Shown here: one piece after another, positions 26,819-45,383 of the stretch | Position numbering within the stretch: the first letter of the stretch is position 1 | Layout: every line of letters starts with the position of its first letter | From: Thermosipho japonicus | GTDB lineage: Bacteria; Thermotogota; Thermotogae; Thermotogales; Fervidobacteriaceae | DNA: 45,512 bases | NCBI RefSeq assembly: GCF_014201655.1 | Contig: NZ_JACHEX010000008.1 | Span: forward strand, 1 to 45,512 | Direction: 5' to 3' | Translations under genes and position numbers: made by a program | Notes under the pieces: model-generated | What the model was told of the DNA's origin: nothing | The model's input: only the letters and a program-made list of their open reading frames with translations | Databases searched by the model: none

Positions 26819-26835
26819 ATTATCACTCCCACAAA

Positions 26836-27237
26836 TTAATCAATATCAATATAGATATCAACATATCTCCTATGCCATTTTATAAATTCTATAAATTGTT
26901 CTGAAAATTGTCTATAAGCTTTTTTGAAAGATTTACTTTCTAAAAATTCTAATACTTCTTGTTTAATACCTTTATCGTTTTCTAAATAACTATCCTTAAA
27001 ATATTCTTTTAAAAATTTTTGAATATCTTTTAGTACATAATAGTAATTATTTTTATCTTTTGTTTTAGAAATAATAAAAACTATTGAAGCGTATAACCCA
27101 TTCTGTAAAACTAACGCACCTAAACTTTTTACTAAACTTTTATAACTTTTTTTTAATTCATTATTACTTTCCATTTCCTTTAAATTTTCTTTTATTTTAT
27201 TTTGAGAAAAATTCTTTATTTCAATTTTATTTCTCAT
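26836..27237 (-). CDS. cmr5: Type III-B small subunit Cmr5 (Cas11)
   Basis: A 133-residue helical protein with the Cmr5 pattern: a central GALVLQNGLYASIVFIISK segment and a C-terminal WHRRYVDIYID end. It lines the inner face of the Cmr filament beside Cmr4. Its start overlaps the end of cmr4 by 11 bp, and GGGGGAAG is the ribosome binding site. Confidence 0.88.
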   Translation of the reverse strand: MRNKIEIKNFSQNKIKENLKEMESNNELKKSYKSLVKSLGALVLQNGLYASIVFIISKTKDKNNYYYVLKDIQKFLKEYFKDSYLENDKGIKQEVLEFLESKSFKKAYRQFSEQFIEFIKWHRRYVDIYIDID

Positions 27238-28114: not shown

Positions 28115-28128
28115 AAATATTACCTCCC

Positions 28129-29175
28129 CTATTCACAATTTTCTAATACTATAAACTTTCCATAATTATATTCATTAAATTCTTCAGTTAATTCTAAATT
28201 TTCCAAATACTTTTCTTCAGCAAAAAAAACTGAGCCTGGAGGAACAATTCTAAACATTTTACCTGGCTTGTTCTTCTTTAAATCCCATCCAGAATAAATC
28301 TCAGGTTTGTAGTTGCAAACAGCAACAATCTTCTGCCTGATATATTCGCTCCTTGGAAGAAATCCATTTCTAAAAACGGCAGGGGTTAAAAGCATCAATC
28401 CTTTAATCTTACTTCTGCTTTCTTTAGAAAACAAATCAGTTTCAATTTCAAAAATTTCCAATTTCGCCAATCTACCTTTACTTCCAATATTTACTGTGTT
28501 AATTTTATTTTGATTTAAAAACTGCTCAGTCTTTTCATCAATAAAAATCCCAAATCCTGCCCCATCTCTAAAACGGTAGGTTGATAATAAATAAAATGCT
28601 CCATGCTCCTTATCCACCATTCTTTTTTTATTATCTAGTGCTATACCAACTTTTCTTTCTATACTAAAAGGTAAATTTTTGTTATATTTGTGTAAATTTA
28701 AATATAATTTTTTGTCTGAAGATTTTTTAAAAGTTTCAAGATCGTTTAGCGAAATAAAAGATATCCCTTCTTCTGAAAGATTATCTATATTACTATATTT
28801 TATATATCTCAAACTCACATTATCAACAACAAAAGAGTCTTGACTTGGAAATCCTTTGTAATACTCATATTCACATGAATTTTCATTTTTACAAATTTTT
28901 CTGAGTTTTAAATTAGCTGGTTTTCTAAAATATATTTCATTTCTTTCCGAAACAATAAATGGTCCGATTAAATTTATTAATTTCTCTCCAATCATTTTTT
29001 CTATTTCTTTTATAGCATCTTTAGTTCCCTTTTTTCTAAAGTAAGCTGAAAATATTGCACCGTAAAAAGTTTTAATATTTGGAAAAATTGTATTTTCAAA
29101 AGTTGAAAAACTTTTTGACTTTCTGAAAGAAACCCAATCTATAGGTATAAATTTAAGAACCTTTACTTTACTCAT
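28129..29175 (-). CDS. cmr3: Type III-B subunit Cmr3 (Cas5)
   Basis: Cas5-like protein that grips the crRNA 5' handle and pairs with Cas10. N-terminal VLKFIPIDWVSFRKSKSF and FPNIKTFYGAIFSAYF are Cmr3-like, as are RFRDGAGFGIFI and the C-terminal PPGSVFFAE. The frame reaches 29184 through a non-ATG codon; AAGGAAGG suits ATG 29175 (MSKVKVLKF), which overlaps the cas10 stop. Confidence 0.9.
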   Translation of the reverse strand: MSKVKVLKFIPIDWVSFRKSKSFSTFENTIFPNIKTFYGAIFSAYFRKKGTKDAIKEIEKMIGEKLINLIGPFIVSERNEIYFRKPANLKLRKICKNENSCEYEYYKGFPSQDSFVVDNVSLRYIKYSNIDNLSEEGISFISLNDLETFKKSSDKKLYLNLHKYNKNLPFSIERKVGIALDNKKRMVDKEHGAFYLLSTYRFRDGAGFGIFIDEKTEQFLNQNKINTVNIGSKGRLAKLEIFEIETDLFSKESRSKIKGLMLLTPAVFRNGFLPRSEYIRQKIVAVCNYKPEIYSGWDLKKNKPGKMFRIVPPGSVFFAEEKYLENLELTEEFNEYNYGKFIVLENCE

Positions 29176-31651
29176 ATTTATCAACCTTCCTTTTTATGTA
29201 TTCGTACTCTAATAATAGATCAATAAATTTACCAAGGTTGTTCTTTTCAAAATTTTTACTATTTTCTTCCAAGATCCGAACATATTTTTCTAGTACTTCT
29301 ATAACTTTTTCTATTCCTTTTATCTTTTTTATTCGTTTTAACACATAAGGGATTAATTGTTCTATAAATTCTTTATTACTAATTTCCAACTTTTCATATT
29401 CAGCTTTTAACCTACGGAAGAATGAATTATATGACTTATCTTTTTTTGTTTCATTTTTTTCAAACAATGAGTATACAAATTCTACCTCATCTAAAATATC
29501 GAAAACTTCTTTTGATTTGTTTAAATAATCCCACTCAAACACTAAATTAGTTATTTTTCCACTTCTTCTAATTGTTCTTAGAGAAAATCTGTTTCTTCCT
29601 TCATTTTTTGCTTCTTTTTCTGCTTTTCTTACCTCGTCAAGAACAAGCGACAAATTTAACTTCGGATTACAAACAACAATACCAGCTGACATTGTAGCTT
29701 TTTCTCCCATCATATTAAATAAAGGTAAATCATCTTTATAGCAAAAACCATTCCTAAACTCATATACCTCACTCTTTCCATCATTTTTATTAACCTCCAC
29801 CCTTACATTTCCTATTCCAGAATAAACTTTTCTTATCTTGTTTGCTGCTTCTAGAACTCTATTAGCGGGAAATATCGCAAGCACATCATCTCCACCAGCA
29901 TAAATTAGTTCACCTTCAAATTCTCTAACAATATGTGGTACAAAGTAAGAAAATTTGTTTAAAGTCCTACTTATAGATTTTTGATAAGTTGGATTTATTA
30001 ACTTATATTTCTTTAAAAAATCTAAATAGTCACTTGATTGTTTTTCAAGAAATTCTATTGCTTTTGGATGAACACTTTTTAAATTATCCTCTATTTTATC
30101 GCCAGTTATCCATTTCCCCATTTGATCTCCATCCATTAATAAAACACCTAACTTATATTCTTTTACTATACTTTCTTTGTTGTTTTCTTCCTCATCTTCA
30201 GAATCTTCATAGCTTATTGGTCTTGTATTTCTTATTCCTTCACCTGCTTCATCTAAACCTATATTTTTAAGATATCTATAAAACTCCCTTTTTATTACAC
30301 TTAAAGACGACAAATTTTCTTTTCTATCTCCCTTTTCATAAATAACTAAAGATTTTAATCCTCCTGATAAATCATCTCCTGGAGTTTCAAAATCTTCAAT
30401 TAACGACTTAAAATTTCGTGTGTTTTTTCTCAAAAAACTTTTTGCTTGAAGTATTTTTGTATGAAAATTGTACATATTTGCTTCAGATAAACTATATGTA
30501 TTTTCTAATTTTGACAACTGTTCATAGTAATTCTCTAACTCCTTTGAACCAATAAATTTTTCCCATTCTTTAAATATCCAATTTTCTTTATTAAGCTTCT
30601 CATTCCCAAATATATAAAACATAACACTTTCAACTATAATGTCAGGAAAAATATTCACTTGTCTATTCCAGTATAATTCTGGATCATTTTCAATCTCTTT
30701 TGCAAATGTGTATTCTTTTAACTTTTTGTTTTTTATTAAATCATAGATAAACTTAGAAATATTATCTATTTCCTTTTTTATAGCACTTTTAATTAAAAAT
30801 TCTATATTTTCCTCACTATTTTTATCTATGTATTCTTCTTTATATGGAATAATAGCTGTAAAAACATTCGGTAAAGAAGCAACTTCTGGTTGCATTAAAA
30901 ATTTTTCCAAATTATTTTTAAAAAAGTCATCAATATTTTCAAGATATTTTTTTACTAAATAATTATTCCTTAAATCTGGAAATATAATACAATCAAATCC
31001 AAACTTTTCACTTATTACTTGAATTCCCTTAAATGTAAGATAAGAAAGAAGATAACTTCCTGACCGTAAATCTCTAATCTTTCTTCCAGCTGCAATAAAC
31101 TCCTGTACTGGACCTATACTTACAGACAAAATTAAATATCCATTGCTTTCTTCATCTGCTGTTGCAAAAGCTGAAGAAATATCTAAGTGATCTATAATAC
31201 TTTGATTTGTAAGTCTTGTATCTTCCAATATTAGATACGAATAATCTGAAATTTTAGGAATTTCCCACCAAAGTCTATATGCAAGTTTTTTATAATCTTC
31301 TATTTTAGCTAATTTAGATATAAAACTTTCTTCATCAATATTTTTAATTTTTTCCTTTACCTTATCATATTCGCTCAAACCCTTCCCAGAAAACGGATGA
31401 AAAAACTTCGACTCATCAAATCCAATCCTTATTTGCTCAGAATTCCTTTTAATCTTTGTTGCTTCTTGAGGAAACAATATCCTAGTTGCAGCAGAAGCAA
31501 TATAATCATACCTAGGATTATTATTCTGCTCCAAGCCAACCACATTTAATAAAGCTTTAGCTAAATTTTTATGTCCTCTAATATTTGCCATTTTATTCAC
31601 TGGATCGTGTAAAAAAGCTTCAACCTTTTTTTTCCAATTAATTTCATTCAT
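29168..31651 (-). CDS. cas10: Cas10 (Cmr2), cyclic oligoadenylate synthase subunit
   Basis: Signature large subunit. An N-terminal FLHDP keeps the His-Asp pair of the HD nuclease (residues 15-16). SIGPVQEFIAAGRKIRDLRSG is the Cmr2 core motif. Two Palm parts are visible, LLMDGDQMGKW near 505-515 and AGGDDVLAIFPA with intact GGDD at 586-589, so cyclic oligoadenylate synthesis from ATP is expected. No C-x2-C zinc ribbon was seen. The start is ATG 31651; the GTG at 31660 lies inside GAGGTG. Downstream effectors in this operon (Csx1, SAVED-Lon) need this product. Confidence 0.95.
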   Translation of the reverse strand: MNEINWKKKVEAFLHDPVNKMANIRGHKNLAKALLNVVGLEQNNNPRYDYIASAATRILFPQEATKIKRNSEQIRIGFDESKFFHPFSGKGLSEYDKVKEKIKNIDEESFISKLAKIEDYKKLAYRLWWEIPKISDYSYLILEDTRLTNQSIIDHLDISSAFATADEESNGYLILSVSIGPVQEFIAAGRKIRDLRSGSYLLSYLTFKGIQVISEKFGFDCIIFPDLRNNYLVKKYLENIDDFFKNNLEKFLMQPEVASLPNVFTAIIPYKEEYIDKNSEENIEFLIKSAIKKEIDNISKFIYDLIKNKKLKEYTFAKEIENDPELYWNRQVNIFPDIIVESVMFYIFGNEKLNKENWIFKEWEKFIGSKELENYYEQLSKLENTYSLSEANMYNFHTKILQAKSFLRKNTRNFKSLIEDFETPGDDLSGGLKSLVIYEKGDRKENLSSLSVIKREFYRYLKNIGLDEAGEGIRNTRPISYEDSEDEEENNKESIVKEYKLGVLLMDGDQMGKWITGDKIEDNLKSVHPKAIEFLEKQSSDYLDFLKKYKLINPTYQKSISRTLNKFSYFVPHIVREFEGELIYAGGDDVLAIFPANRVLEAANKIRKVYSGIGNVRVEVNKNDGKSEVYEFRNGFCYKDDLPLFNMMGEKATMSAGIVVCNPKLNLSLVLDEVRKAEKEAKNEGRNRFSLRTIRRSGKITNLVFEWDYLNKSKEVFDILDEVEFVYSLFEKNETKKDKSYNSFFRRLKAEYEKLEISNKEFIEQLIPYVLKRIKKIKGIEKVIEVLEKYVRILEENSKNFEKNNLGKFIDLLLEYEYIKRKVDKYE

Positions 31652-31669
31652 ATATATCACCTCAAAAAA

Positions 31670-32941
31670 TTAGATTATTTTGTTTAATTCTTTATATTTT
31701 TCTATTGTATTTTTTAACTTATTGTAATCAAAATCTATATTTATTGAGGATTTGAATTCTTTCTTCTTAGATTTACCTTCCCTGTTTTTTATTTTTACTA
31801 TTTTCTTTAATACAAGTTTTGAATTTTTTAAATGTATTTTGCTTAATAAAACAATTAAATAAACCTTATATTTCCCATTCTTCTCTTTCCACAACTTTAT
31901 TGTTAATAATGATGATTTTCTATATTCATTTCCTTTATCATCTAAAGCATTTAATTTATAATTTGCTTTACTATAATAGAACAAAACAGGCAATCCAAGT
32001 AATGCATCATTAAAATCAACTTTCTTTTCGTCATTAAAATTTTGTATAGCATCCTTAAACGCAGAATCTCTTAACTTCTTTTTCAAATCTAAATATGAAA
32101 AATTATTTTTTTCAGGAGAATATATATTCCTAAGAGCATCTTTGTCTGAATAAAATTCTTTTTTTAATTTATATACATGAAAAAATCCATCAACAAACGC
32201 TGGAAAATCAAAAGCCTCATCACTTATGCTACTATTATTTGTACTATTTTCCTTATTTTTCTCGTTTTCTTTTACAAAAATTTTATCCAAATATTTTATC
32301 TTTTCCTCTAAACTCTTTAATATTGTACCTATGTCTTCTAATTTAATATCTCTTTCTATATTTCTTATAACAAATTGTCCAAATCCCTTCTTTACCTTTG
32401 CCCCAAATCCTCCAACCAATGAAATTAAGACAAATAAATCCTTAATAAACTCCTTGAATTTATAAAAATGTTCATCTACTTTATTATAATCTTTTATTCT
32501 TCTTTTGAAAAATGATTTATAGAATATAAACCTTATAGAAAATTCACTACCTGAATCCAATAAATTTATCTTTTCGTTTGGATTTTCATTATTTTGTTCC
32601 TCTTTATTCTTACAGTCATTACTTTTTTTATTCAAAATAATACCATATAATGAATATCTCAAATTCATTAACTTAGATAATTTTATTTTATTTTCTCTTT
32701 GCAAACTAATTGTCACATCAAACAAAGACTTGTTATTATTAGAACCAAATATAATATCCTCCAATCCTTTGATCTTTTTATAATTATTTCCAAAAACTCT
32801 TGCAGCTGTTGCTCTAAAGTAATATCTCATTACACCACGTACAGTTTGTGGCAAAAGAACCGAATCTTTACATTTTTCTCTACGATTTATCAAGGGAGAA
32901 ATAAATTCAATATTAAATTTCAAAGTTTCCAATTTTTTCAT
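31670..32941 (-). CDS. cmr1: Type III-B RAMP protein Cmr1
   Basis: A two-RAMP protein at the crRNA 3' end of the complex. The family start FNIEFISPLINRRE and the helix LLPQTVRGVMRYYFRATAARVFG are clear, as is GGFGAKVKKGFGQF, the glycine-rich loop of the first domain. Long Asn/Lys-rich insertions lengthen it to 423 residues. AGAGGAGAG precedes the ATG; it lies 18 bp before cas10. Confidence 0.88.
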   Translation of the reverse strand: MKKLETLKFNIEFISPLINRREKCKDSVLLPQTVRGVMRYYFRATAARVFGNNYKKIKGLEDIIFGSNNNKSLFDVTISLQRENKIKLSKLMNLRYSLYGIILNKKSNDCKNKEEQNNENPNEKINLLDSGSEFSIRFIFYKSFFKRRIKDYNKVDEHFYKFKEFIKDLFVLISLVGGFGAKVKKGFGQFVIRNIERDIKLEDIGTILKSLEEKIKYLDKIFVKENEKNKENSTNNSSISDEAFDFPAFVDGFFHVYKLKKEFYSDKDALRNIYSPEKNNFSYLDLKKKLRDSAFKDAIQNFNDEKKVDFNDALLGLPVLFYYSKANYKLNALDDKGNEYRKSSLLTIKLWKEKNGKYKVYLIVLLSKIHLKNSKLVLKKIVKIKNREGKSKKKEFKSSINIDFDYNKLKNTIEKYKELNKII

Positions 32942-32964: not shown

Positions 32965-33687
32965 CTAAATTAACTCCACACATCCAAATCCCATTGAATT
33001 TTTCATTCCTATTCCAGCGTCATAAGCAACCTTTAATAACTCAAAATCTCCATATATATCAAATGCAGTAAGCCAACCAAAAATTACCGTATTCTTATAA
33101 ATTACCTTTACTCTTTTTGGATTTTTACCTACATGTTTTATTTCAATATTATTTTTAGATATGTTTCCATAAAAAGCAGTGTATTTTTTTAAAATGTTTT
33201 CATATAAAAGAGATAAAAACTTACTTGAATCTGGTTCATAAAAAATTGTTTCTTTTTTATTTTCATAATTAAACAAAGTTGAATAAACTACCACGGGAGA
33301 TTTTGTTGAAACTCTAAGATAATTTGTAGAAGGGAGGGACTTTAAAACAGCAGCTTTAACATATATTTTTTCACCTAATACATTTATATATCCTTTCTTC
33401 AAAATATAATTTATAATATATTCAATCATAGCATCATCTAAGGACGATATAATAAGTCTTGCACCATTGAAAAAAGCTATTTTATTACCAGATATTTGAA
33501 AATTTCCAAGCAATCTTGAAAAAGTATATAATTTGAATTTTCTTTTTCCCAAAACATATCCTTCATCGTGTATAAATTTTCTATATCCACTAGAATCTAT
33601 CATGTTTATAATGATAGACTGTAATATATGATTGTAATGAATTGGAAGCTCTAACTTTTCAAAATCTAAATCTAAATAAATTCTCAT
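32965..33687 (-). CDS. cas6: crRNA-processing endoribonuclease Cas6
   Basis: Cuts pre-crRNA within the repeat, leaving the 8-nt handle. The N-terminus LELPIHYNHILQSIIINMI is the Cas6 start with a candidate catalytic His, and the C-terminal AGIGMKNSMGFGCVELI is the glycine-rich RNA-binding loop. 240 residues is normal. It should serve both arrays, whose repeats are identical. Confidence 0.92.
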   Translation of the reverse strand: MRIYLDLDFEKLELPIHYNHILQSIIINMIDSSGYRKFIHDEGYVLGKRKFKLYTFSRLLGNFQISGNKIAFFNGARLIISSLDDAMIEYIINYILKKGYINVLGEKIYVKAAVLKSLPSTNYLRVSTKSPVVVYSTLFNYENKKETIFYEPDSSKFLSLLYENILKKYTAFYGNISKNNIEIKHVGKNPKRVKVIYKNTVIFGWLTAFDIYGDFELLKVAYDAGIGMKNSMGFGCVELI

Positions 33688-33697: not shown

Positions 33698-35131
33698 CTA
33701 TATCGCTTTTCCTAATTCACATATTTCCTCTTCATTTAACCTTATGCACACCATTGAATTATGCTTCTTCAAATAAAAAGTTTTTTTAGATAAACTACCA
33801 TGAGCAACAAAGTTTCTTTCTTTTCTTGAAAAATTTTCTATACTATTTTGTTTTTTTAATTCATCTTTTTCAGGTTCTAGTTCTTTTTTTGTATTTTCAA
33901 CCTTTTCTTCGCCTTCTATACTTTCATTTTTCCTTGATTTGAGTACCTCTAAATCAAAAAGTATTTCCTCTCCTTCTTCTATATAATCAAACAAACTTTC
34001 AATCTCTTTTATCTCTTTTTCAAGAACCAATGAAATTTGATCTTTAAACTCATCAATTTTCCATATAAAATTTGACAATTTCTTTAGTTCATCATAAGGT
34101 ATTTCTGTACAGTATTTTGTTCCATAAATATTTTCAAAGTAAATCTTAAATATACTGCCAAGCACCAAATATTTTATGCCTTCTGAAAATTCTAGCTTCC
34201 TAAGTACCATTTTTAATTTTTCATCACTCTCTCTAATTTCAATAGCTGAATTGTACATTTCTAATGATTTATCAACTACATATTTAAAATCAGCTCCATT
34301 CATTGCATATAAATATAAAAGTGGAAGACCGTAATAAATAGACTTTAAATATAATTCTAAATTTAAAAAAACATCATTTAACCCCATATTTTTTTCATTT
34401 CTTAATCTCTTTTCAAATTCTCCAATATAATTTTTCCCAACTTCTTTTCTTTCATTAACAGGCAAAACTCTAAAAACACTAATAGTTTTTTTAGCAAAAT
34501 CTTTTTTATAAGATATAGACTGTTCAAATACTTTTTCTTCAACAACATAAACATTAATTTTATTTTTTCTTTCTGCTGAAGTGTTAATTACCGGCTCTGC
34601 ATTTGTAAGTTTAAATCGTACCTTTTTGAAATACGCCAATACTGGCAAAACATCCATTAACGTTCTATATAAAACATTAGATTGATAATTAATACCAAAA
34701 CTAATATCCAATATTACTTCAATTTCTTCAGAATTAATTATTTCTGGTCTTGAAAAAATATTTAAAAGCTGAATTAACGTCATATAATACGTGTCATTCA
34801 TGTTTCCAACAAATCTAAATTCTTTATAACTTCCAACACCAGGAATAATATGTAAATTTAAATTTCCTTTATAATCTTTGCTTTTAAAATAATCAGAATA
34901 CTTATTTTCCAGACTAGTAATAATGTCTTCGTACTTAAAATCTTCTATTAATAAATCATTTTTTTCTACCAAAGTATCTAGTAAAAAAAGTTCTGTAGTA
35001 TCAACCCCAAAAGCTTTGTACATTAAATAAGGTAAAAATGAGCTTTCAAATGTGTTTTCGTTATAATCAATAGAATATTCAACTTCTTTATAATTACTAA
35101 TTTTCCCAAAGGTTGAAAAAAATAATTTCAT
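33698..35131 (-). CDS. csx1: Csx1-family CARF-HEPN ribonuclease
   Basis: Ancillary type III effector. The first ~200 residues form a CARF sensor (FFSTFGKISNYKEVEY, EEIEVILDISFGINYQS). After a helical linker and a charged Glu/Lys stretch, the C-terminus has the HEPN catalytic motif R439-N-F-V-A-H444. Cyclic oligoadenylate made by Cas10 should bind the CARF dimer and switch on cleavage of cellular and phage RNA. The start overlaps the end of the Lon-SAVED gene by 4 bp, so the two effectors are made together. Confidence 0.88.
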   Translation of the reverse strand: MKLFFSTFGKISNYKEVEYSIDYNENTFESSFLPYLMYKAFGVDTTELFLLDTLVEKNDLLIEDFKYEDIITSLENKYSDYFKSKDYKGNLNLHIIPGVGSYKEFRFVGNMNDTYYMTLIQLLNIFSRPEIINSEEIEVILDISFGINYQSNVLYRTLMDVLPVLAYFKKVRFKLTNAEPVINTSAERKNKINVYVVEEKVFEQSISYKKDFAKKTISVFRVLPVNERKEVGKNYIGEFEKRLRNEKNMGLNDVFLNLELYLKSIYYGLPLLYLYAMNGADFKYVVDKSLEMYNSAIEIRESDEKLKMVLRKLEFSEGIKYLVLGSIFKIYFENIYGTKYCTEIPYDELKKLSNFIWKIDEFKDQISLVLEKEIKEIESLFDYIEEGEEILFDLEVLKSRKNESIEGEEKVENTKKELEPEKDELKKQNSIENFSRKERNFVAHGSLSKKTFYLKKHNSMVCIRLNEEEICELGKAI

Positions 35132-36576
35132 AAAACTTCCCCCCTAATTTTTTCTATTTTGAATACTTCAATATAATCACCCGTATTTTTATCAAAATGG
35201 AATATTGAACCCTTTGCAAAATCTCCAAATGAAAGCCCTACTCCAAAAGATAATGGAACCGGACAACTCATAAAGAAAAAGACGTTTTCACAAGAATGTT
35301 TAAATTGTATGTTCTGAGTAACAGACATTATTTCTGAAACAATTTCACTCCAATCTTCTGCCGGCAAATTCCCTTTTCCAAATATTGGTTCAATTAATAC
35401 CAACTTTGAATCAATATTATTTTTGCTTAAAAAGTTTTTAACTGCATCATATGGATTATGAGAAGCAAAATACAATATAAATGCACAATTTTTACCATTT
35501 TCATTTTCCACTGAATACTTTACAAATTTATAATCACTTACAATATTCTTTACTTTTCTAACATTGTCAGTCAGATCAATAACAGGTTTATATTCAATTC
35601 CTGCCTTGTGATAAACAACTAATGGATTTTGAACACCTAAAGCTATACCTAAAGCCATAGAAAATGATGCAGGTCCCATTATTGCAATATGGGGAATACC
35701 TCTATTTGATATAATTTTGTAAAGCAAGCTATTTACTTCTTTTAAAACTTGTCCCCAATCATCATTCAAGCTATCTTTTACAAAAACTTTATTTACATCG
35801 TAAATTTTTTCAAAAATATCACCGTACTTTATTTCAAATTTTTCATTAACTGCCTCTTTTAATTCTTCATATGAAGTTCTAATATATTCTTTATCTTTAG
35901 CCATTAAAGAAATTAGTATTGGTATATGTATTTTCTTAGCTTCAAAAAATTCTTTAAGCTCAAATACATTATCCACATCCAAAGCACTTATTAGTTTTAA
36001 ATTATTTTCACTACAAATTTTCAACTTTAAATCTAAATATTCAATATTTCTTTTGATATTCCCTTTTTCATCAATTTCTCCAGTAAATGCTATATTTTTA
36101 GGAATTTTTTTACATAATGAACCAATAGCTACAGCAAGCTCAAAAGAATTACCCTTAAACTCACTGTCAAATATTACAATAAGTTTTTTACCAAGAAGAC
36201 TTTCAATTTTCTCAATTGAACTTTTTAAGTCTGAATTATTTGTAAAACTTTTTTTTGATTCAAAAACAATTGCTCTGGCAATTTTTCCGTTTCCAAGTTT
36301 GTTTACTATAGGAAAAAAAACTTCAACAAAATCGTTTTTGTAAATATCAAATATTATTTCTTCATTTCCATTAAAGAATTTTTTCAATAATTCTTGGTTT
36401 AAATCAACAATCTTTTTTTCTTTAATTTTTTTTACTATCTCATAAAAAACAAGAAATTTATTATCAAAATCTTCCGCATTTATAAAAGACTCAATTGCTT
36501 CCTTTACTGTTATGTCGTCACGCTCCAAGATTTTTAAAAAATCAGAAGAATTTGAACTCAATAGCCTTGAAAACAT
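35128..36576 (-). CDS. CRISPR-associated Lon-SAVED protease (CalpL-like)
   Basis: N-terminal helical part (1-110), then a Lon-type protease domain (about 115-225): GNSFELAVAIG supplies Ser144 and NIAFTGEID is the Lon TGE strand, with Lys184 40 residues after the Ser, at the spacing used by LonB-type enzymes. The C-terminal half is a SAVED sensor made of two CARF-like repeats (IAIMGPASFSMALGIALG and FFFMSCPVPLSFGVGLSFG). In the described CalpL system cyclic tetra-adenylate polymerises the protease, which cuts CalpT and frees the sigma factor CalpS. The two preceding genes fit these partners. ATG 36576 is preferred over TTG 36579 because of GAGGTG. Confidence 0.85.
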   Translation of the reverse strand: MFSRLLSSNSSDFLKILERDDITVKEAIESFINAEDFDNKFLVFYEIVKKIKEKKIVDLNQELLKKFFNGNEEIIFDIYKNDFVEVFFPIVNKLGNGKIARAIVFESKKSFTNNSDLKSSIEKIESLLGKKLIVIFDSEFKGNSFELAVAIGSLCKKIPKNIAFTGEIDEKGNIKRNIEYLDLKLKICSENNLKLISALDVDNVFELKEFFEAKKIHIPILISLMAKDKEYIRTSYEELKEAVNEKFEIKYGDIFEKIYDVNKVFVKDSLNDDWGQVLKEVNSLLYKIISNRGIPHIAIMGPASFSMALGIALGVQNPLVVYHKAGIEYKPVIDLTDNVRKVKNIVSDYKFVKYSVENENGKNCAFILYFASHNPYDAVKNFLSKNNIDSKLVLIEPIFGKGNLPAEDWSEIVSEIMSVTQNIQFKHSCENVFFFMSCPVPLSFGVGLSFGDFAKGSIFHFDKNTGDYIEVFKIEKIRGEVL

Positions 36577-37340
36577 CAATCAATCACCTCAATAACTAAA
36601 AATTTCTTTAAATCTTCAACTGATACTTTTATATTATTTGACACAAAGGCATTTGGCAGTTCTCCTTCATAAATAACCTGGTTTTTAAAAATCAACTTTC
36701 CTTTTTTACCAATAGCGTTATCTTGCAAATAAACTTTTAGAGTATTGTCTTCAACAATACCAACAAAATTTTCGCCTCTTAAACTATTTGTCCCTGCAAC
36801 TAATGCAAATTCGCTAATATATGGAATATTTATTTCTATTATTTTGCCTTCATCTTTGGTCTCATCAAAAATCTTCTCAAAGAAAATATCGTACAATAAA
36901 GATATCTGGTCAATCAGTAGATCAAAATATTCTTTTCTTGGACCTGTATAAATCTGTTCTTCTAATTCTTCAACATTTTCAACAATTTTGTTTATATCTT
37001 CTTTTACATTTAAAATAACTTCACAATAATTCTTTGCAAAATCATCTTCAATATAAAAATTTACGTGTGTTACGTAAACATAATCAACTAAATGATTTAC
37101 TTTTATTTTTAAAGCTTTTGAGCTACTTAAAAAAACATCTTGTGAAAGCAAAACGCATTCAGCTAAATCTCCATTCTTTTCAATAACAACTCCGTACACT
37201 AAAGTATCACCATATATTACAAAAACATCTCCAGCTTCCAGTGCTTTTCCATCAGGCACTCTCTTTAGTGATTCAATATTTAATTTATATTTTCCAAATA
37301 AGTTTTTATACAATTCAAATTCTTTCTTTAAAAAGCTCAT
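36576..37340 (-). CDS. Putative CalpT: protease substrate and sigma-factor partner
   Basis: 254 residues. Residues 35-110 look like a small beta barrel of MazF type (AGDVFVIYGDTLVYGVVIEK), residues 112-160 are helical, and the end is again beta-rich. It lies between a sigma-like gene and a Lon-SAVED gene, the gene order of the CalpS-CalpT-CalpL cascade, in which the MazF-like CalpT holds the sigma factor until cut. No catalytic residues could be assigned. The identification rests mainly on context and fold impression. TAGGAGG is a strong ribosome binding site. Confidence 0.6.
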   Translation of the reverse strand: MSFLKKEFELYKNLFGKYKLNIESLKRVPDGKALEAGDVFVIYGDTLVYGVVIEKNGDLAECVLLSQDVFLSSSKALKIKVNHLVDYVYVTHVNFYIEDDFAKNYCEVILNVKEDINKIVENVEELEEQIYTGPRKEYFDLLIDQISLLYDIFFEKIFDETKDEGKIIEINIPYISEFALVAGTNSLRGENFVGIVEDNTLKVYLQDNAIGKKGKLIFKNQVIYEGELPNAFVSNNIKVSVEDLKKFLVIEVID

Positions 37341-37349
37341 AGTAACCTC

Positions 37350-38024
37350 CTACTTTTTATTTTTTTCTTCTCTATTATTATGACGAATCTTATCACAAAT
37401 TTCTGACATATAGATTTTCACAGCTATTGCAAATTCTTTTTGATCTATTCCAAAATCTTCTACTAAATTCCTCAGTTTTTCTTTTAACCTTTGAACCATT
37501 TTATACTTTGCATCCTTTGACTTTTCACTATAGAAAATTTCTTCATTGTATAGAACCTTGTAAAAATAATAACAAAGTTGCATATTATCTAAAGATTTTA
37601 ACTCTTCAACAAAATATTCTGCAATAACTTCAGACTTTACATCATCAAGTTCGATAACATTTATTACATCTATCTTTTCGTTCCCCTCATCATCTTCTTT
37701 GTTCAAAGAAAGTTTAGATTTATAGCTCTTCACAATATCAATAATATGATTTAATATCAACCTTGAAATGTAACTTTCAATGTTTTCAATATTGTTTATT
37801 TTTGACATCAAAATCTTTTTTTTATTCTTTATTTTAATAAATATTTCGTTTATAATTTCATTTACAGCCGAATCATAAGTTCCATATATATCAATCAATG
37901 TATCTTTATAATTAGAATGAGTACCAATTACTATAGTTACAATTTTTTTTATTAAAAGATATAATTTATTTTCCTCTTCTTCTTCAACCTTATTATTCAA
38001 GTACTTTAATATAATCTCTTTCAC
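37350..38024 (-). CDS. Sigma-70-like factor, putative CalpS
   Basis: Residues 52-104 follow the pattern of sigma region 2: AVNEIINEIFIKIKNKKK followed by IENIESYISRLILNHIIDIV, then a basic stretch. The C-terminal 60 residues are helical and basic and could act as region 4, though no clear helix-turn-helix motif was seen. In the Calp cascade such a protein is released to redirect RNA polymerase. GTG start behind GAGGTG that overlaps the stop of the preceding small gene. Divergent, so confidence is moderate. Confidence 0.6.
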   Translation of the reverse strand: MKEIILKYLNNKVEEEEENKLYLLIKKIVTIVIGTHSNYKDTLIDIYGTYDSAVNEIINEIFIKIKNKKKILMSKINNIENIESYISRLILNHIIDIVKSYKSKLSLNKEDDEGNEKIDVINVIELDDVKSEVIAEYFVEELKSLDNMQLCYYFYKVLYNEEIFYSEKSKDAKYKMVQRLKEKLRNLVEDFGIDQKEFAIAVKIYMSEICDKIRHNNREEKNKK

Positions 38025-38026
38025 TT

Positions 38027-38440
38027 TTATATCACCTCAATAAAATTTTTTATATTTTTTCTACATAAACCACATTTTACAAAATTTTCCTCAATAACTT
38101 TTCTTGGAAGCTTAAACACTAATTTTTTATGGTAATTGAATGCATATGATGACTTTAATACCAACTTAGAACATTCAAAATCTTCACTAATTACACAAAA
38201 CTTATTTATATCTACTTTTATTTTTGAATAACTTTTAGTTGATAAGAATAAAAGTTTTAAACTATTTTTTCCATTGTCTTCAACAATAGCCGGTCTTCTT
38301 TCCCTTTCTACAGTCCTTGATTTATACAAAGAATCAAAACCCAAAATTTTTGAAATTTCCTTTAATCTATATATATAACCTATTAAAGATTTAAAATCAC
38401 TCGGTTCTTTCTGAAAAATTGCATCAATCAATTGTTTCAA
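38027..38440 (-). CDS. Small MazF/PemK-like protein at the head of the Calp module
   Basis: 137 residues, TTG start with AAAGGAGG. The middle part (ERERRPAIVEDNGKNSLKLLF) resembles the Arg-Pro strand of MazF/PemK toxins, and the end has a Cys pair, KCGLCRKN. It is the first gene behind an extended -10 promoter and directly precedes the sigma-like gene, so it belongs to the same signalling unit. It might be a toxin, an RNA-binding regulator or a second MazF-fold partner. Not firmly recognised. Confidence 0.4.
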   Translation of the reverse strand: MKQLIDAIFQKEPSDFKSLIGYIYRLKEISKILGFDSLYKSRTVERERRPAIVEDNGKNSLKLLFLSTKSYSKIKVDINKFCVISEDFECSKLVLKSSYAFNYHKKLVFKLPRKVIEENFVKCGLCRKNIKNFIEVI

Positions 38441-38469
38441 TTATTCTCCTCCTTTCACCTCCATTTACA

Positions 38470-38512
38470 TTTATTATAACATATTTTTTATTAGTTGAAT
38501 TTATTGTTAAAT
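38470..38512 (-). repeat. Direct repeat B (copy of the second cas2 end plus promoter)
   Basis: These 43 bp match 42529-42571 at 41 positions. The copy there spans the last codons and stop of the second cas2 and the sequence just after it. Here the block lies upstream of the MazF-like gene. The two copies bracket the pair of GTPase genes. Confidence 0.85.
38473..38481 (-). promoter_or_regulatory. Extended -10 promoter for the MazF-like/Calp/cmr genes
   Basis: On the minus strand TGTTATAAT fits the extended -10 form TG-n-TATAAT. No good -35 box is present, which this class tolerates. The TTG start of the 137-residue protein is about 30 bp downstream. All genes from here to cmr6 follow with small gaps or overlaps. 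Confidence 0.6.
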
Positions 38513-38575
38513 TTCCATATTTTTTATTACATCAAATTTTTTGCATTACTCAAAACAAACCTATTTTTTATAAAT
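38489..38575 (-). pseudogene. Degenerate cas2 3' remnant
   Basis: Read on the minus strand, the last codons spell FNNKF-x-stop as in the intact second cas2 (FNNKFI-stop), and patchy base similarity extends upstream for roughly 60 bp (AATTTGATG against TTATTGATG at the matching place). Further upstream the similarity is lost. The rest of the 312-bp gap (38576-38752) is AT-rich without a visible feature. Confidence 0.4.
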
Positions 38576-38752
38576 TTGATTATTATAATTTTACATTTTT
38601 TGACACAATTCATCATGAAAACTTGCTTGATAATAAACTTATTATTAAAATTCTCCTTTTTAATAACTATAAAGTATAAAGTTTCAGATTTATCTTCATA
38701 ATCTTAAAAATTAATTTCATTTCCAATTCAAATTAATACCTAAAACTAATTT

Positions 38753-40345
38753 TTATTGAAAGATAATTAAGTCAGAACTAATTTCAACTATTTTATTTAT
38801 CTTTTTTACTATAATATTTCTTTTATCTTCAAGTAAAATAACCATATTCCTTATATCATTAACAATTGGAAAATAATTTTTAATATAATTTTCTCTTGTC
38901 AATTCTTTCATTAAATTTTCAAAAATCTTTTCTATTTCATTTTTTATTTCTTCTTTATAGCTCTCTAATTTTTTTAAGTTGAAATATTCTACTGCGTCAG
39001 CAAAAAAACCTAAAAGAAAAATACTTCCCTTCATAAATTTTGCAAGCTTAATAGCTCCCCATGGTTTAAATTTAAAAGGAATTTTTAAAAAATTCCTTAT
39101 TTTAAGAATAATATTTCCTAAATTTCTATTAGAGATTTTAATAATCGATAACACTATAGGTAAATATTCTTTTGGTATTGAATTGATTAATTTTAATTCA
39201 GGGAAAGAATTTATTGATTTTTCAGATAAATCTATTATTTTCTTTACATCAGAAATTAAGCTACTTGTATGTTTTTCTATTATTAGATTTATTCTATCCT
39301 CAAGTATTTTTCCATCTTTTCCAAACTTACTCTGGATAAAATTGTTTATTTCTTCTTTATTTTTTGCCGCTGAAATTCCTAATAATATCTCTTCTCTCAA
39401 TTCATGAATTTCATTCTTAATATTAATATAACTTTTGTTTATTTCATCTTCCAAGTTTTGAATATAAGATTCTTGTTCCTTTATTTGATTATCAATTTCA
39501 TCAACTGATCTCTTTAAATTATCTTTTAATTTATTTAAATCAGAAATAATCTGATTATATGAATCTTTTATAACACTTATACCAGCTTTCACTATAAGCT
39601 CATTTTTATACTTCTCAATAAAATCAGAAATCAAAAACTCTAAATTTTCAATTCTAGATAGCTTTTTATAATTTTCATTGTTTTTCCAATAACTTAAACC
39701 TTTACCATATGGATCTGCAGAAACACACACTATTTTAAGTTCTCCTTCAAATCCTGTTATTTTACGAACAATATCAGAAACTACTTCCTTTTTTATTCTA
39801 GCTGCTTTTTCAAAATCCTCATCATCCTCTAAATCTGCTACTTCATCCATTTTATTTATTACAAATATAGTCGAATCAATTTTATTCAAATCTGAAAGCA
39901 ACCATTTCAATGTAGGAAAATGTGATTTCTTCAACGGGTTAACTGGATCAACCACATATATGATGACATTTGCTTCAGAAATGTACTTTTTAGTTAGTTC
40001 ATCATGAAACAAATTTTCTGAAAAAAGGCCTGGTGTATCAATTAAAAAATAATCCTTATATTTATATGTTTGAATTCTATCTGTAGTAGGTGCTGGTGAT
40101 ATTTCAATACTCAATTCATCAATTAACACTGATAGTATTGTTGATTTTCCATCTGAAAAAGCTCCAAAAAAAGCAATCGAAAATTTATCATTTTCAATAT
40201 TATTAATTGCTTTTTTTATTTTTTCTTTTAAACTCTTATATTTCTCATTAGAAAAAAATTCAGCTTCTAAAACATCTACTTTTTTTAATAAACTCTTTAA
40301 CTTTAAAATTATATTTTCCTTTTCATGAGAAATATTTAGATTCAT
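38753..40345 (-). CDS. Dynamin-like GTPase, second of a pair
   Basis: 530 residues. All G motifs are present: P-loop GAFSDGKS (61-68), switch Thr in PAPTTDR (87-88), DTPG (103-106) and NKMD (164-167). A long helical stalk (about 250-390) leads to a hydrophobic patch at 431-455 suited to membrane insertion, then a second helical part. This layout is that of bacterial dynamin-like proteins, which often occur as tandem pairs and remodel or patch membranes; some protect against phage. It sits inside the cas operon, 34 bp after its partner. Confidence 0.8.
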   Translation of the reverse strand: MNLNISHEKENIILKLKSLLKKVDVLEAEFFSNEKYKSLKEKIKKAINNIENDKFSIAFFGAFSDGKSTILSVLIDELSIEISPAPTTDRIQTYKYKDYFLIDTPGLFSENLFHDELTKKYISEANVIIYVVDPVNPLKKSHFPTLKWLLSDLNKIDSTIFVINKMDEVADLEDDEDFEKAARIKKEVVSDIVRKITGFEGELKIVCVSADPYGKGLSYWKNNENYKKLSRIENLEFLISDFIEKYKNELIVKAGISVIKDSYNQIISDLNKLKDNLKRSVDEIDNQIKEQESYIQNLEDEINKSYINIKNEIHELREEILLGISAAKNKEEINNFIQSKFGKDGKILEDRINLIIEKHTSSLISDVKKIIDLSEKSINSFPELKLINSIPKEYLPIVLSIIKISNRNLGNIILKIRNFLKIPFKFKPWGAIKLAKFMKGSIFLLGFFADAVEYFNLKKLESYKEEIKNEIEKIFENLMKELTRENYIKNYFPIVNDIRNMVILLEDKRNIIVKKINKIVEISSDLIIFQ

Positions 40346-40379
40346 ATAATTCCCCCTTTTCTTAAAACTATATCTAAAA

Positions 40380-42365
40380 TTAATTTGTTGGCTTTTTGAA
40401 TTTTCTAATTCTTATTCCATCTTTATTATTTAAAAATAATAAGTTCAACGCTCTATAATCAAATTCATCTGTTACATATATAACTTTTTCAACTTTCTTA
40501 CTAACTACACTACTCAACCATTCATCTTTTGAAGTGTAAAAGTAAATCTTATCTAACCTAAACATATTTTCTATATAATTATTCACATCAGAATTAACTT
40601 TAAACCCCACAAAAATTGCTTTCGATAATTCCAAATCAATATAAGCAAACTCAACTTTTTCACCCAGAATATTTTTGACTAATAATAAACTCAATTCACC
40701 TTCAATCTTTTTAATGTAAGAAATCAACTTGTCAATATTTTTACCTAAAATTTTTATTCCATTTACAGCGAGCCTTATATTTTTTATATTTTCTTCTACG
40801 TCCTTTTCTATTCTTGAAAATATTTCATTAACTTTCTTTTCCATCTCACTTTTTATTTTAGATATCTTTAAATCAACTTCTTTAACAGCATTATTTTTAT
40901 ATTCTATTCTATCTTTCTCCGAAGATATAACTTTAAAATAAAATAATTCATAAGCCCCCAAACCCAAAGCATATAAAGGGTTAATATTAAAAAATACTAA
41001 GCCAATTCCAAGATTTAAAAAAAATTTCAAAAAGCTAAACGGTTTATTAAATATTTCTTCAATATCAATTTCGAAATACTGTCTTAAGTTAAAATCTTTA
41101 AACAAATTCTCAAACTCATATTCAAGTAAAAATTTATCCAACAGTTCTTGAAATTTTTGTTCTACCTTTTCCTTCATTGTATTTAAATTGTCTTTGATCA
41201 TTTGATTAATATCTTGCTCTTCTTCTTTTAATATTTTTTCAATTTCTTTTTTTATCATTTCTAGACTATGAGATTCATCTATACTTTCCATCAAAAACTT
41301 TTCTAATTTATTTTTTAAAGATGCTATTTTAACCTGCAGTTCATTAGATGTTCTAACTTTATACTTTTTAACTAATTTATTTACTTCACTAATATAGTCT
41401 TCTATTAATTTTGAAAATTCTCGCAATTTTAAATCAAATGATTTTTTCTGTTTTACAACACTTGATAAAATTTCTTTTACATTAAAGAGTATTTTATAAG
41501 TATTTGAAATTACTATCTCATTAAAAATTTCCTTTCTTAAACCAGCAATTATTTTTTCTATCTCTTTAATATTTGAAAAATATTCAATATTTGATTTACT
41601 ACCAAATATTTCCAACGCTTTTTCTTTATCTTTGGCAAATCTATCATTTAATGAATCATTTTTTAATAAAGCAAGATGAGCATTAATTATAATATTACCA
41701 AAGTATCTTCTTCCTAAAACTTTTTTCAACTTTAATATAGTTCTTTTTTCAATAGTTTTCACATCATTATTAACTAACTCTTTTTCATACTTATACCTTG
41801 AAGGCTTTCCCCTAACATTAATAATAGAGTAAACTTTTGCGTTGTCTTTTAAAAATTTTTTTATTCTTGAAACTATATTTTCCTCCGGTTCTTTATTAGT
41901 TCCAATGACATAAAAAACAATATGTGATTTATTCAAGGCTTTTTTTATTTCATCTATTACTTTTTCTTCATCACCTTCAATTCCAGGCATATCAATTAAA
42001 TTTATATCACTAAATGATTTTTCTTTAACAAATTTAGTAAAATCTTTGTATCCCTCTCCTATACTACTTCCATCACCATTAGTCAAAGCTTCAATAATTG
42101 TACTTTTCCCTGCATTCGTTTCACCAAAAAAGGAAATATTTAAATTATTCCACTCCAATTCATTTTTTAAAAATTCAATCTCCTTTTCAATACGTAAATT
42201 ACCTTCTAAAACTTTATTTTTTACCTCCTCGACAATTTTCTCAAATTCTTCATTTGCTATTATTCCGTGAACTGAGAAATTTTTAATATTATTTACCAAA
42301 AATAAATTCAAATCTTCTACTAATTTAGAAATATTATGCTTGTAATCTACTATCTTTTCCTTCAT
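40380..42365 (-). CDS. Dynamin-like GTPase, first of a pair
   Basis: 661 residues. P-loop GETNAGKS at 81-88, DMPG at 125-128, but the base-specificity motif is NVRG at 183-186 in place of N/T-K-x-D. Long coiled-coil stalks (about 300-435) flank a hydrophobic hairpin at 442-478 (FLNLGIGLVFFNINPLYALGLGAYE is spread over this range), a probable membrane paddle. The C-terminal 60 residues form a separate alpha/beta piece. With the following gene it would form a heteromeric dynamin pair. GGGAGGG precedes the ATG. Confidence 0.78.
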   Translation of the reverse strand: MKEKIVDYKHNISKLVEDLNLFLVNNIKNFSVHGIIANEEFEKIVEEVKNKVLEGNLRIEKEIEFLKNELEWNNLNISFFGETNAGKSTIIEALTNGDGSSIGEGYKDFTKFVKEKSFSDINLIDMPGIEGDEEKVIDEIKKALNKSHIVFYVIGTNKEPEENIVSRIKKFLKDNAKVYSIINVRGKPSRYKYEKELVNNDVKTIEKRTILKLKKVLGRRYFGNIIINAHLALLKNDSLNDRFAKDKEKALEIFGSKSNIEYFSNIKEIEKIIAGLRKEIFNEIVISNTYKILFNVKEILSSVVKQKKSFDLKLREFSKLIEDYISEVNKLVKKYKVRTSNELQVKIASLKNKLEKFLMESIDESHSLEMIKKEIEKILKEEEQDINQMIKDNLNTMKEKVEQKFQELLDKFLLEYEFENLFKDFNLRQYFEIDIEEIFNKPFSFLKFFLNLGIGLVFFNINPLYALGLGAYELFYFKVISSEKDRIEYKNNAVKEVDLKISKIKSEMEKKVNEIFSRIEKDVEENIKNIRLAVNGIKILGKNIDKLISYIKKIEGELSLLLVKNILGEKVEFAYIDLELSKAIFVGFKVNSDVNNYIENMFRLDKIYFYTSKDEWLSSVVSKKVEKVIYVTDEFDYRALNLLFLNNKDGIRIRKFKKPTN

Positions 42366-42528
42366 CTAAACCCTCCCAATTATAATAATGTTTAACTTTT
42401 CACTAGTTTAAAAAAATATATTTTAGTAAAAAATTTTTTTACTGATAAAAAACCTCTCTTCTGTTTTCCACCTAAACATACTATCAGTATTTAATCTAAG
42501 TGGATATATTAATTCTTCCCTTCCACTT

Positions 42529-42571
42529 TTTATTATAACATATTTTTTATTAGATGAACTTATTGTTAAAT
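42529..42571 (-). repeat. Direct repeat A (end of second cas2 plus promoter)
   Basis: Original-looking copy of the 43-bp block that recurs at 38470-38512. It includes the cas2 stop codon (42550-42552) and 21 bp beyond it. Confidence 0.85.
42532..42540 (-). promoter_or_regulatory. Extended -10 promoter upstream of the GTPase pair
   Basis: Same TGTTATAAT as at 38473-38481, about 165 bp before the first GTPase. The gap 42366-42531 also holds a small palindrome, ATACT-GAT-AGTAT, at about 42479-42491. Confidence 0.5.
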
Positions 42572-42819
42572 ATACACTTTTCCTTTCCATCAATAACTTT
42601 TCTAAAAACCTTATTTGAATTAAAAAAATAGATTACAAAACTATCCTCCTCTTCATCAATTTTATTTTTAACTTCATAGAACAACTTTTTAATATTTGAT
42701 TGAGATAAACATCCTTCAAAAGTTGAATTTTGCTGCCAAACAAGGTATTTTTTTAAAATTTTATGTATTTTGTTCACTCTTTTTTCATTTACATCATAAA
42801 CAACCAAAAGATACTTCAA
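42550..42819 (-). CDS. cas2: Second Cas2-like protein
   Basis: 89 residues with the Cas2 ferredoxin start KYLLVVYDVNEKRVNKIHKILKKYLVWQQNSTFEG, including the metal-site Asp9. It is clearly related to, but well diverged from, the Cas2 at 43823-44086. TTG start within the stop region of cas1 (4-bp overlap, GGGGGG upstream), so it is translated together with Cas1. It may be the working partner, a paralogue with a different role, or a Cas2-fold toxin-like nuclease. Confidence 0.85.
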   Translation of the reverse strand: MKYLLVVYDVNEKRVNKIHKILKKYLVWQQNSTFEGCLSQSNIKKLFYEVKNKIDEEEDSFVIYFFNSNKVFRKVIDGKEKCIFNNKFI

Positions 42820-43808
42820 ATAAATCCCCCCATCACAAATCCCTTAAATTTTTCAACTCCTTTTAAATGTCTAATCAATTTATAACATTCATGCCTTATT
42901 ACTGTTTTAAAAGTTACACTTTGATTTTCATAAATTGTAACTTTCTTATTTAATCTCTCTTCAATTTCATTTATAAATTTTTTCTTTGCGTCTTCATATA
43001 AAAATACCCCATTGTTGTTAAAATTAAAATCTTCTTTCTTAATTTCTTTTTTATTCACCAATTTTAAAATTGCTTTATCCACAATTATTGGTTTAAAAAT
43101 CTCTGCAATATCAAGCTGTAAAGAAAATTTACGCTTATTTGTTTCATGCAAAAAACTTATTCTCGGTTCTAAAGAAGTTTTATATATCTCAGCTAAAACT
43201 GTGTTATAAAGTATTATATTTCCAAAGCTTATAAGTGCATTTATTTCATCTTTGGGAGGTCTCTTTAGTCTTTCGTCAAAATCAAATCCTTTACGTTTTA
43301 CAATTTTTCCTAAAGCTTTATAATAAGCTTTTCTAATATTTCCTTCTATGGCCATTAAGGCCGGTATATTATTTTGCTTTTTCAAACTATCCTTAATCTT
43401 TACTATATAATTTAACTCTTCACTAGTAATTTCTTTATATCCATTCAGCACCCAAAGCATATTCAAAACTGCAGATTCTAATATTTCTTTTGCAATTTCA
43501 AGCCTTTTACTTAAATCATAATAATATTGAAATTGCAAAACTATCATCTCTCCAGTTTTATTGTTCTCTGGTGGATAAAAAGAACCAATAAATTCCCCAT
43601 AATAACCATAAAAAAAGGTAGGTATACCTTCTTTCGCTAACAATCCCAAAAATTTTTTATTAAAACTTACCTCTGAAAAAATCATAATAGAAGAAATATT
43701 TTTTAAAGGGACAAAAAATGGCTTTGAATCTTTGCTTTTTGGAACAAAGTATAAAGCATGGTTTTTTCTTTTTAGTTCCCCATCAGTAAAAATATATAAA
43801 GTTTCCAT
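42816..43808 (-). CDS. cas1: CRISPR integrase Cas1
   Basis: Integrates new spacers at the leader end. The N-terminal beta domain (METLYIFTDGELKRKNHALYF) precedes the helical catalytic domain with the metal ligands E155 (AIEGNIRKAYY), H221 (ISFLHE) and D233/E236 (LQLDIAEIFKP), all intact. 330 residues is normal, and no reverse transcriptase is fused. GGAGG precedes the ATG. Flanked on both sides by cas2 genes. Confidence 0.95.
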   Translation of the reverse strand: METLYIFTDGELKRKNHALYFVPKSKDSKPFFVPLKNISSIMIFSEVSFNKKFLGLLAKEGIPTFFYGYYGEFIGSFYPPENNKTGEMIVLQFQYYYDLSKRLEIAKEILESAVLNMLWVLNGYKEITSEELNYIVKIKDSLKKQNNIPALMAIEGNIRKAYYKALGKIVKRKGFDFDERLKRPPKDEINALISFGNIILYNTVLAEIYKTSLEPRISFLHETNKRKFSLQLDIAEIFKPIIVDKAILKLVNKKEIKKEDFNFNNNGVFLYEDAKKKFINEIEERLNKKVTIYENQSVTFKTVIRHECYKLIRHLKGVEKFKGFVMGGFI

Positions 43809-43822
43809 ATTTTAAACCTCCA

Positions 43823-44086
43823 TTAAATTATATTTGTTACATTAATTTTTTTATTTCCATAAATTTTTCTATAAGGTACAAACTCTGGTTCTAATATATA
43901 CCAATATATAGTGTCTTCATCTTCATCTATTATACTTAAAATTTGATTCCTTAGCTTTTCAAAATTACTCTCAGTTATTTTACCTTCTAACACTGAATTT
44001 TGAACCCATTTTAAATACTTTCTTGCTACTTTTAAAACTTTTCCAACTCTCTTTTTATTTACATCGTAAATCATTATTAAATACAT
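43823..44086 (-). CDS. cas2: Cas2
   Basis: 87 residues: YLIMIYDVNKKRVGKVLKVARKYLKWVQNSVLEG is a typical Cas2 N-terminus with Asp8, and the C-terminal strand follows. It would form the bridging dimer of the Cas1-Cas2 integrase. AGAGGTG precedes the ATG. It is the first cas gene of the leftward run, 37 bp from the terminator of the preceding membrane-protein gene, with no clear promoter of its own. Confidence 0.92.
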   Translation of the reverse strand: MYLIMIYDVNKKRVGKVLKVARKYLKWVQNSVLEGKITESNFEKLRNQILSIIDEDEDTIYWYILEPEFVPYRKIYGNKKINVTNII

Positions 44087-44133: not shown

Positions 44134-44134
44134 T

Positions 44135-44701: not shown

Positions 44702-45074
44702 TTTTTCATTCCTCATAGGTAGATTCTAAACTTAAAATTGTATCATTGATTTTCTTTTTGAGGTGTTGTTTTCATTCCTCATAGGTAGATTCTAAACGCA
44801 AATACTTTTTGAGGGGAAAATATTGTTATTTAAGTGTTTTCATTCCTCATAGGTAGATTCTAAACCCACATTTTATAAAGAAGTAACCCCACGGCACGGC
44901 TAGTTTTCATTCCTCATAGGTAGATTCTAAACACAAGATAAAACATTTTTTATAACTTCAAGCGTTGTAGCACAAGTTTTCATTCCTCATAGGTAGATTC
45001 TAAACTACCCATATGATTTACCAAGCATACTTGACCTATTTTATGTTTTCATTCCTCATAGGTAGATTCTAAAC
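44702..45074 (-). CRISPR. CRISPR array 2: 6 repeats, 5 spacers
   Basis: Same 30-nt repeat as array 1 but on the minus strand. Repeats occupy 45045-45074, 44976-45005, 44903-44932, 44836-44865, 44768-44797 and 44702-44731 in transcription order. Spacers are 36-43 nt and share none with array 1. The last repeat has its final base changed, marking the leader-distal end. Confidence 0.97.
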
Positions 45075-45383
45075 CTATAAATATCCTCATAAATAAATAT
45101 AACAAGAAAAAGTAACAAAACCTTTGAGCGGAAGTAAACGATAAGTTAAATCTAGAATTTATGAGCTCTTATTTAACTTTATCTTCGAAAACATCTCCTA
45201 AAAATTTGTCTATTTTCAGTCTATTAACATAAACGTTACATATACCATATTATAGATTTAGTAAAAATGCACTTTTTTGAATTTTGTTAAAAATGTGTTA
45301 AAAAAAATTTTCTTTCTTAGAATAACATCAACACTTTTTTATTGTTAATTTTAAATTTCCTTTTAGTTAATTTTTTATTTTTC
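45075..45383 (-). promoter_or_regulatory. Leader of CRISPR array 2
   Basis: Mirror copy of the array 1 leader. 45075-45301 aligns over exactly 227 bp, and similarity continues more weakly to about 45383. The inverted repeat (AAGTTAAAT 45143-45151, ATTTAACTT 45171-45179) is kept. Only 22 bp separate the end of this similarity from the IS inverted repeat. Confidence 0.8.

Follow-up and report, generated by a model that had tools for sequence, protein, structure and literature searches.

An Eleos-type LeoA-LeoBC dynamin pair inserted into a type III-B Calp CRISPR locus of Thermosipho japonicus

Eleos reportedly comes from Millman et al. 2022, and we know of no trigger for it. To our knowledge, the type III CRISPR effectors so far described as acting on membranes are small membrane proteins with a fused sensor (Cam1, Csx23 and CorA). 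Eleos is a dynamin-like defence system, grouped with Dynamins (PMC11811056; PADLOC PDLC03839-03843). LeoA, LeoB and LeoC of ETEC were also described as dynamins (PMC4159319; LeoA structure 4AUR). Campylobacter jejuni has two unequal dynamins of the same fold in one operon, Cj-DLP1/2 (5OWV/5OXF), which form a membrane-tethering hetero-oligomer, both partners being needed for tethering and activity (PMC6104087). DynA delays phage-induced lysis, forms clusters on the membrane and supports membrane integrity (PMC8844932). The type III Calp module consists of CalpL, CalpT and CalpS (CalpL structure 7QDA).

The window, which is the whole stretch of 45,512 nucleotides of T. japonicus DNA analysed here (contig NZ_JACHEX010000008.1), carried such a dynamin pair in a Calp locus, whose CalpL matched 7QDA (Table 1). 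Along the minus strand the gene order was CRISPR array, a 125-aa ORF, cas2, cas1, cas2, LeoBC, LeoA, orf137, CalpS-like gene, CalpT and CalpL, continued by Csx1, cas6, cmr1, cas10, cmr3, cmr4, cmr5, cmr6 and another CRISPR array, and both arrays shared one common repeat. A sequence-only reading had described two adjacent large GTPases on one strand between the adaptation genes and the Calp module, and this was borne out, with LeoBC upstream, a gap of 34 nt between the two genes, cas2-cas1-cas2 on the upstream side and orf137 to Cmr1-6 on the downstream side. Two different cas2 genes flanked cas1, and the cas2-cas1-cas2 order was kept in four relatives (L024, L025, L027 and L029).

Table 1. Features of the T. 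japonicus locus, listed along the minus strand (positions in the window).
Feature	Position	Strand	Basis or remark
Second CRISPR array, 6 repeats	44703..45080		Opposite strand; repeat as in the first array
cas2 upstream of cas1	43823..44086	-	Pfam 9.6e-20
cas1, Cas1b-like	42816..43808	-	Pfam 2.4e-86
cas2 downstream of cas1	42550..42819	-	Pfam 6.7e-21
Right repeat copy	42529..42581	-	3' tail of cas2 and TATGTTATAAT promoter, upstream of LeoBC
Insert, 4059 bp	38523..42581		One repeat copy and unique DNA; absent from sister G001 and the other Calp loci read
LeoBC-type dynamin-like GTPase, 661 aa	40380..42365	-	PADLOC, model matches, motifs
LeoA-type dynamin-like GTPase, 530 aa	38753..40345	-	PADLOC, Pfam, PDB 4AUR, model
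Left repeat copy	38470..38522	-	Remnant cas2 tail and TATGTTATAAT promoter, upstream of the Calp operon
orf137, first gene of the Calp operon, no assigned function	38027..38440	-	41-91% identity in relatives
CalpS-like gene	37350..38024	-	Position and size; weak PADLOC HTH match (PDLC01153, 8.7e-8)
CalpT homologue	36576..37340	-	PADLOC CRISPR-T 3.6e-64
CalpL, SAVED-Lon protease	35128..36579	-	PADLOC SAVED_LON 3.2e-190; PDB CalpL 7QDA 4.8e-41
Csx1 (CARF-HEPN)	33698..35131	-	Pfam Csx1_CARF 2.7e-21
cas6	32965..33687	-	Pfam 2.7e-34
cmr1, cas10/cmr2, cmr3, cmr4, cmr5, cmr6	26069..32941	-	
CRISPR array, 11 repeats	24865..25586		

The two GTPases were identified as the LeoA-LeoBC dynamin pair of the Eleos defence system, of a deep-branching clade that stands apart from the Eleos of plasmids and Proteobacteria. 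LeoA (PADLOC model PDLC03840, 4.6e-93, residues 5-525) and LeoBC (PDLC03841, 1.4e-73) matched their respective models over nearly full length, and the genes are adjacent and co-directional as in Eleos. LeoA also matched DLP_helical (2.8e-42) and Dynamin_N (3.1e-13) of Pfam and had ETEC LeoA (4AUR) as its top PDB sequence match (4.6e-53), and LeoBC matched MMR_HSR1 (3.4e-12) and, weakly, Dynamin_N. An unknown GTPase family was ruled out by the LeoA/LeoBC identification in three independent searches; the proteins are a described defence pair. The ETEC system is alike in LeoA fold and sequence and in having paired GTPases, but LeoB and LeoC are fused into one protein here, and the ETEC genes lie in a pathogenicity island instead of a CRISPR locus. 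Cj-DLP1/2 share the fold, but gave no match in the PDB sequence search, and their description (PMC6104087) is not a defence-system study.

AlphaFold models of LeoA and LeoBC (mean pLDDT 78 and 76) matched BDLP, the C. jejuni DLP pair, mitofusin 1 and Fzo1 in structure comparison, which agrees with the dynamin fold proposed earlier. The best match of the LeoA model was 4AUR, with a VIA Z of 21.8 over 451 residues, 28% identity in the structural alignment and an rmsd of 14.7, which was large because the halves were hinged differently. Motifs and models gave both proteins a GTPase domain with P-loop and DxxG and a long helical stalk. The motifs of LeoA were complete (GAFSDGKS, DTPG, NKMD), while LeoBC had the P-loop GETNAGKS, DMPG and a degenerate G4 (NVRG), and [NT]KxD was present at this position in 0/12 aligned LeoBC. 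A canonical G4 [NT]KxD is usual in bacterial dynamin-like proteins, not obligatory. The hydrophobic paddles of the sequence-only reading are putative. Hydropathy favours putative membrane tips at about 420-452 in LeoA, where a KFKPWGA motif is kept across the wider family, and at about 443-482 in LeoBC, but both stretches were modelled at pLDDT < 50.

At its C-terminus LeoBC has an additional alpha/beta domain of about 100 aa (about residues 563-661; 40380-40680, minus strand), confidently modelled in good part and found in most members of the clade, both with and without CRISPR neighbours. The domain, modelled as part of the whole protein, had no Pfam match, and hhalign against Csx1 and CalpL profiles was negative, so a role as CARF/SAVED sensor found no support. 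No such sensor was recognized in LeoA or LeoBC by Pfam, PADLOC or hhalign to the same two profiles. A direct second-messenger switch is unsupported, since no CARF/SAVED domain was recognized in either protein and the C-terminal domain matches nothing tested, and the dynamins themselves are probably not sensors of cyclic oligoadenylate. Indirect control of the pair through CalpS is possible.

The pair was recently inserted into this locus. In the sister genome G001, whose operon is about 95% identical in DNA to this one, cas2 is followed directly by orf137 and the dynamin genes are absent. Window positions 26742-38512 aligned with 19501-7745 of the sister locus (L024) and 42529-44865 with 7789-5428. 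On the sister side the two alignments share 45 bases, and the window has these bases twice. A direct repeat of 53 nt, with copies 89% identical and 4059 bp apart, flanks the insert. Within it lie the 3'-terminal codons of cas2 and, for the Calp operon, the extended -10 promoter element TATGTTATAAT. The repeat has only these two copies in the whole 1.92-Mb genome, which rules out a dispersed element. Both copies share bases differing from the sister, consistent with doubling in this lineage, and the left one has two further changes in its now useless cas2 tail. LeoA was detected in none of 102 further genomes of the phylum, and the pair was absent from 60 relatives searched. Because the sister has an intact operon without the pair and the flanking repeat marks an insertion, the pair is not an integral old part of the operon, and an ancient membership was ruled out by the empty sister site and by the other Calp loci lacking it. 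The dynamins are thus an addition to the Calp module, and they are missing from most of the Calp loci read. The insert showed neither transposase nor convincing terminal inverted repeats, and a transposon was rejected. A phage-borne origin was likewise rejected, the pair having no match in 50,697 phage records or in viral contigs. The G+C content of the insert (38523-42528) was 23.2%, lower than that of the cas genes around it (25-26%) and that of the window's first 24 kb (31%).

Since the repeat carries the promoter, the dynamin operon and the Calp/Cmr operon each stand behind a copy of one promoter, a feature by which this pair differs from Eleos elsewhere. Six relatives keep the TGTTATAAT promoter in front of orf137, and its copy lies upstream of LeoBC. 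By its letters the conserved TGnTATAAT resembles a housekeeping sigma site, an ordinary extended -10 sigma-70 element, rather than one of the ECF/CalpS type. A further promoter, private to LeoBC, may lie just before the gene; in DNA this rich in AT, scans for consensus promoters performed no better than chance.

A LeoA profile search over 84,980 species gave 151 loci, of which the best 80 made up the survey set. LeoBC was detectable beside LeoA in 78 of these 80, and plasmids carry the pair without adjoining cas genes, so the pair is a self-contained module. Among the best 80 of 151 loci, type III genes were found in the flanks read only at L042, by a scan with cas profiles built from the few sequences of the window and its relatives. 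Searches of more genomes brought in another four loci, three in Aquificota plus one in the phylum of Desulforhopalus, and two of the four were linked to type III. Nineteen LeoA formed a clade with support 100/100, which excludes plasmid and proteobacterial Eleos and differs from them in that most members have the C-terminal domain of LeoBC.

Type III linkage, in or beside the locus, was seen in 4/19 loci of this clade and in 0/66 outside it (from the best 80 of 151 and the added loci; Fisher p 0.0019, and 3/18 with p 0.0086 when the window was left out). Enrichment near type III loci, the test named in the sequence-only reading, was thus absent family-wide and appeared within the clade. Random placement, calculated from the sizes of the genomes and their counts of strong Cas10 loci, would give 0.22 linked loci (Poisson P of four or more 8e-5), a comparison which ignores defence-island clustering and shared thermophilic life style. 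For this reason, and because some contigs did not reach far enough for a judgement and few sequences went into the cas profiles, the enrichment is taken as suggestive. The linked loci did not form one clade. At least three changes of label are needed on the LeoBC tree and four on the LeoA tree, so the linkage arose more than once or was repeatedly lost; the four changes in the LeoA tree speak against a single origin. Repeated capture of this clade's pair by type III loci is likely.

Besides the window (III-B, Calp), the linked loci were L128 (Aquificota III-A, Calp), L042 (III-B, Card1) and L127 (Csx1/Cas6/CRISPR). In L128 all genes lie on one strand in the order CalpT, CalpL, Cas10, csm2, csm3, csm4, csm5, a 76-aa ORF, cas6, LeoA, LeoBC, cas1, cas2 and CRISPR, with LeoA 26 nt after cas6 and LeoBC overlapping by 4 nt. 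L042 has the order RtcR-like activator, 251-aa ORF, DUF445, LeoBC, LeoA, Card1-like CARF nuclease, Cas4-like gene, Cas10 and cmr3-4-5-6-1, in which the pair overlaps the nuclease gene by 8 nt within one cmr operon. The pair of L127 has cas6 on one side and Csx1 with a CRISPR array on the other, and Cas10 was not found within the stretch read. A repeat array at L129 was rejected as CRISPR, being an in-frame coding repeat. Unlinked members of the clade had restriction genes as neighbours at L037 and metabolic genes at L041, L044 and L046.

The best reading of the pair is a known membrane-acting defence that was repeatedly captured by type III loci. For the window, the full account has a probability of about 0.6: an Eleos-type LeoBC-LeoA module was acquired horizontally and went in behind cas2, ahead of the Calp/Cmr operon, whose promoter region was doubled, and it would act as a membrane defence complementing type III. 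Family, fold, insertion, the doubled promoter element and the recurring type III linkage of the clade are shown, and the membrane action is a proposal. By analogy with DynA and the C. jejuni pair, LeoA and LeoBC would probably assemble during infection as a hetero-oligomer on the cytoplasmic membrane, through their hydrophobic and basic tips, and might there blunt phage infection by delaying lysis or confining the damage. Such action could complement the nucleic-acid and transcriptional attack by Csx1, Cmr and Calp, and co-expression from the Calp promoter copy, by which the dynamins would be produced along with Calp and Cmr, could join the two defences. ETEC LeoA alone bound neither lipid nor nucleotide in vitro (PMC4159319), which counts against the proposed membrane role. 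The membrane protection or disruption suggested by the sequence-only reading could also take the second form, the pair being a suicide effector that disrupts the membrane. Bilayer deformation is within the known abilities of dynamins, and other type III effectors attack membranes, namely Cam1 (PMC10808066) and Csx23 (PMC11014256), but DynA, the dynamin that has been examined in phage-infected bacteria, supports the integrity of the membrane (PMC8844932) and the insert has no visible toxic trigger or immunity gene, and this form is quite improbable.

How closely the pair is tied to type III was weighed between two further explanations. It could be a hitch-hiker in a defence island, functionally unlinked to type III, which is possible and entertained tentatively. 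The insertion here is recent and unique, Eleos pairs are usually away from CRISPR (none of those outside the clade was linked), and other clade members neighbour restriction or metabolic genes; against hitch-hiking stand the four linked loci that are not monophyletic, more than random placement would give, and the operon-like packing of L128 and L042. Those two loci, one a second, distant combination of CalpL/CalpT with the pair and the other sharing bases with a CARF nuclease gene in a cmr operon, also favour a true ancillary arm, as does the Calp promoter copy before the dynamin operon. Cyclic oligoadenylate made by Cas10 would then activate CalpL, CalpT would be cut, and the freed CalpS would raise transcription of the dynamin operon and other genes, so that target recognition would be needed to turn on membrane remodelling. 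The apparent sigma-70 character of the promoter is against this, as are the absence of the pair from the family's other Calp loci, the failure to find a CARF/SAVED domain, a LeoBC C-terminal domain unlike the Csx1 and CalpL profiles and clade members with no nearby CRISPR, and such an arm is unlikely. In a broader form, which is equally doubtful, the Eleos clade would be a repeatedly recruited membrane arm of type III, coupling recognition of phage RNA to membrane assembly of dynamins by Calp sigma-factor release or other Cas10 signalling. That the pair serves type III immunity as an arm at all is possible.

No published report of a linkage between dynamins and type III CRISPR was found among the papers searched; an earlier mention is possible, the primary surveys of Calp, of Eleos and of accessory genes of type III being outside the search. 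A dynamin pair in type III operons would act on membranes in another way than Cam1, Csx23 and CorA, and type III linkage would offer Eleos a possible signal source. The insertion with its duplicated promoter illustrates that one step can wire a stand-alone defence into a CRISPR operon, the sister genome giving the picture before. Separate captures of distant relatives by type III loci hint that the two defences work well together, and the Aquificota locus, which combines Calp with the pair, opens this link to a direct test by reconstitution.

Some observations were made on neighbouring genes. The product of orf137 had no family match above threshold and ends in a CGLCRKN motif; six relatives (L024-L029) keep the gene as the immediate upstream neighbour of CalpS in their Calp loci, and it may be an unrecognised Calp component. 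In the sister genome, CalpS (L024:8236-8336) showed an apparent frame change near codon 28-33, with tblastn pieces one base out of phase. LeoBC was split into two ORFs beside an intact LeoA at L126:7910-9050, so the pair looks broken in that genome. In two genomes distant from each other the immediate neighbour of the dynamin pair was a DUF445 gene (L042:7333-7869 and L045:13582-14373). In L042 the RtcR-like sigma-54 activator and the 251-aa gene (5269-7336) lie upstream of DUF445-LeoBC-LeoA-Card1-Cas10 in the same direction, and the activator is a possible regulator of this operon.
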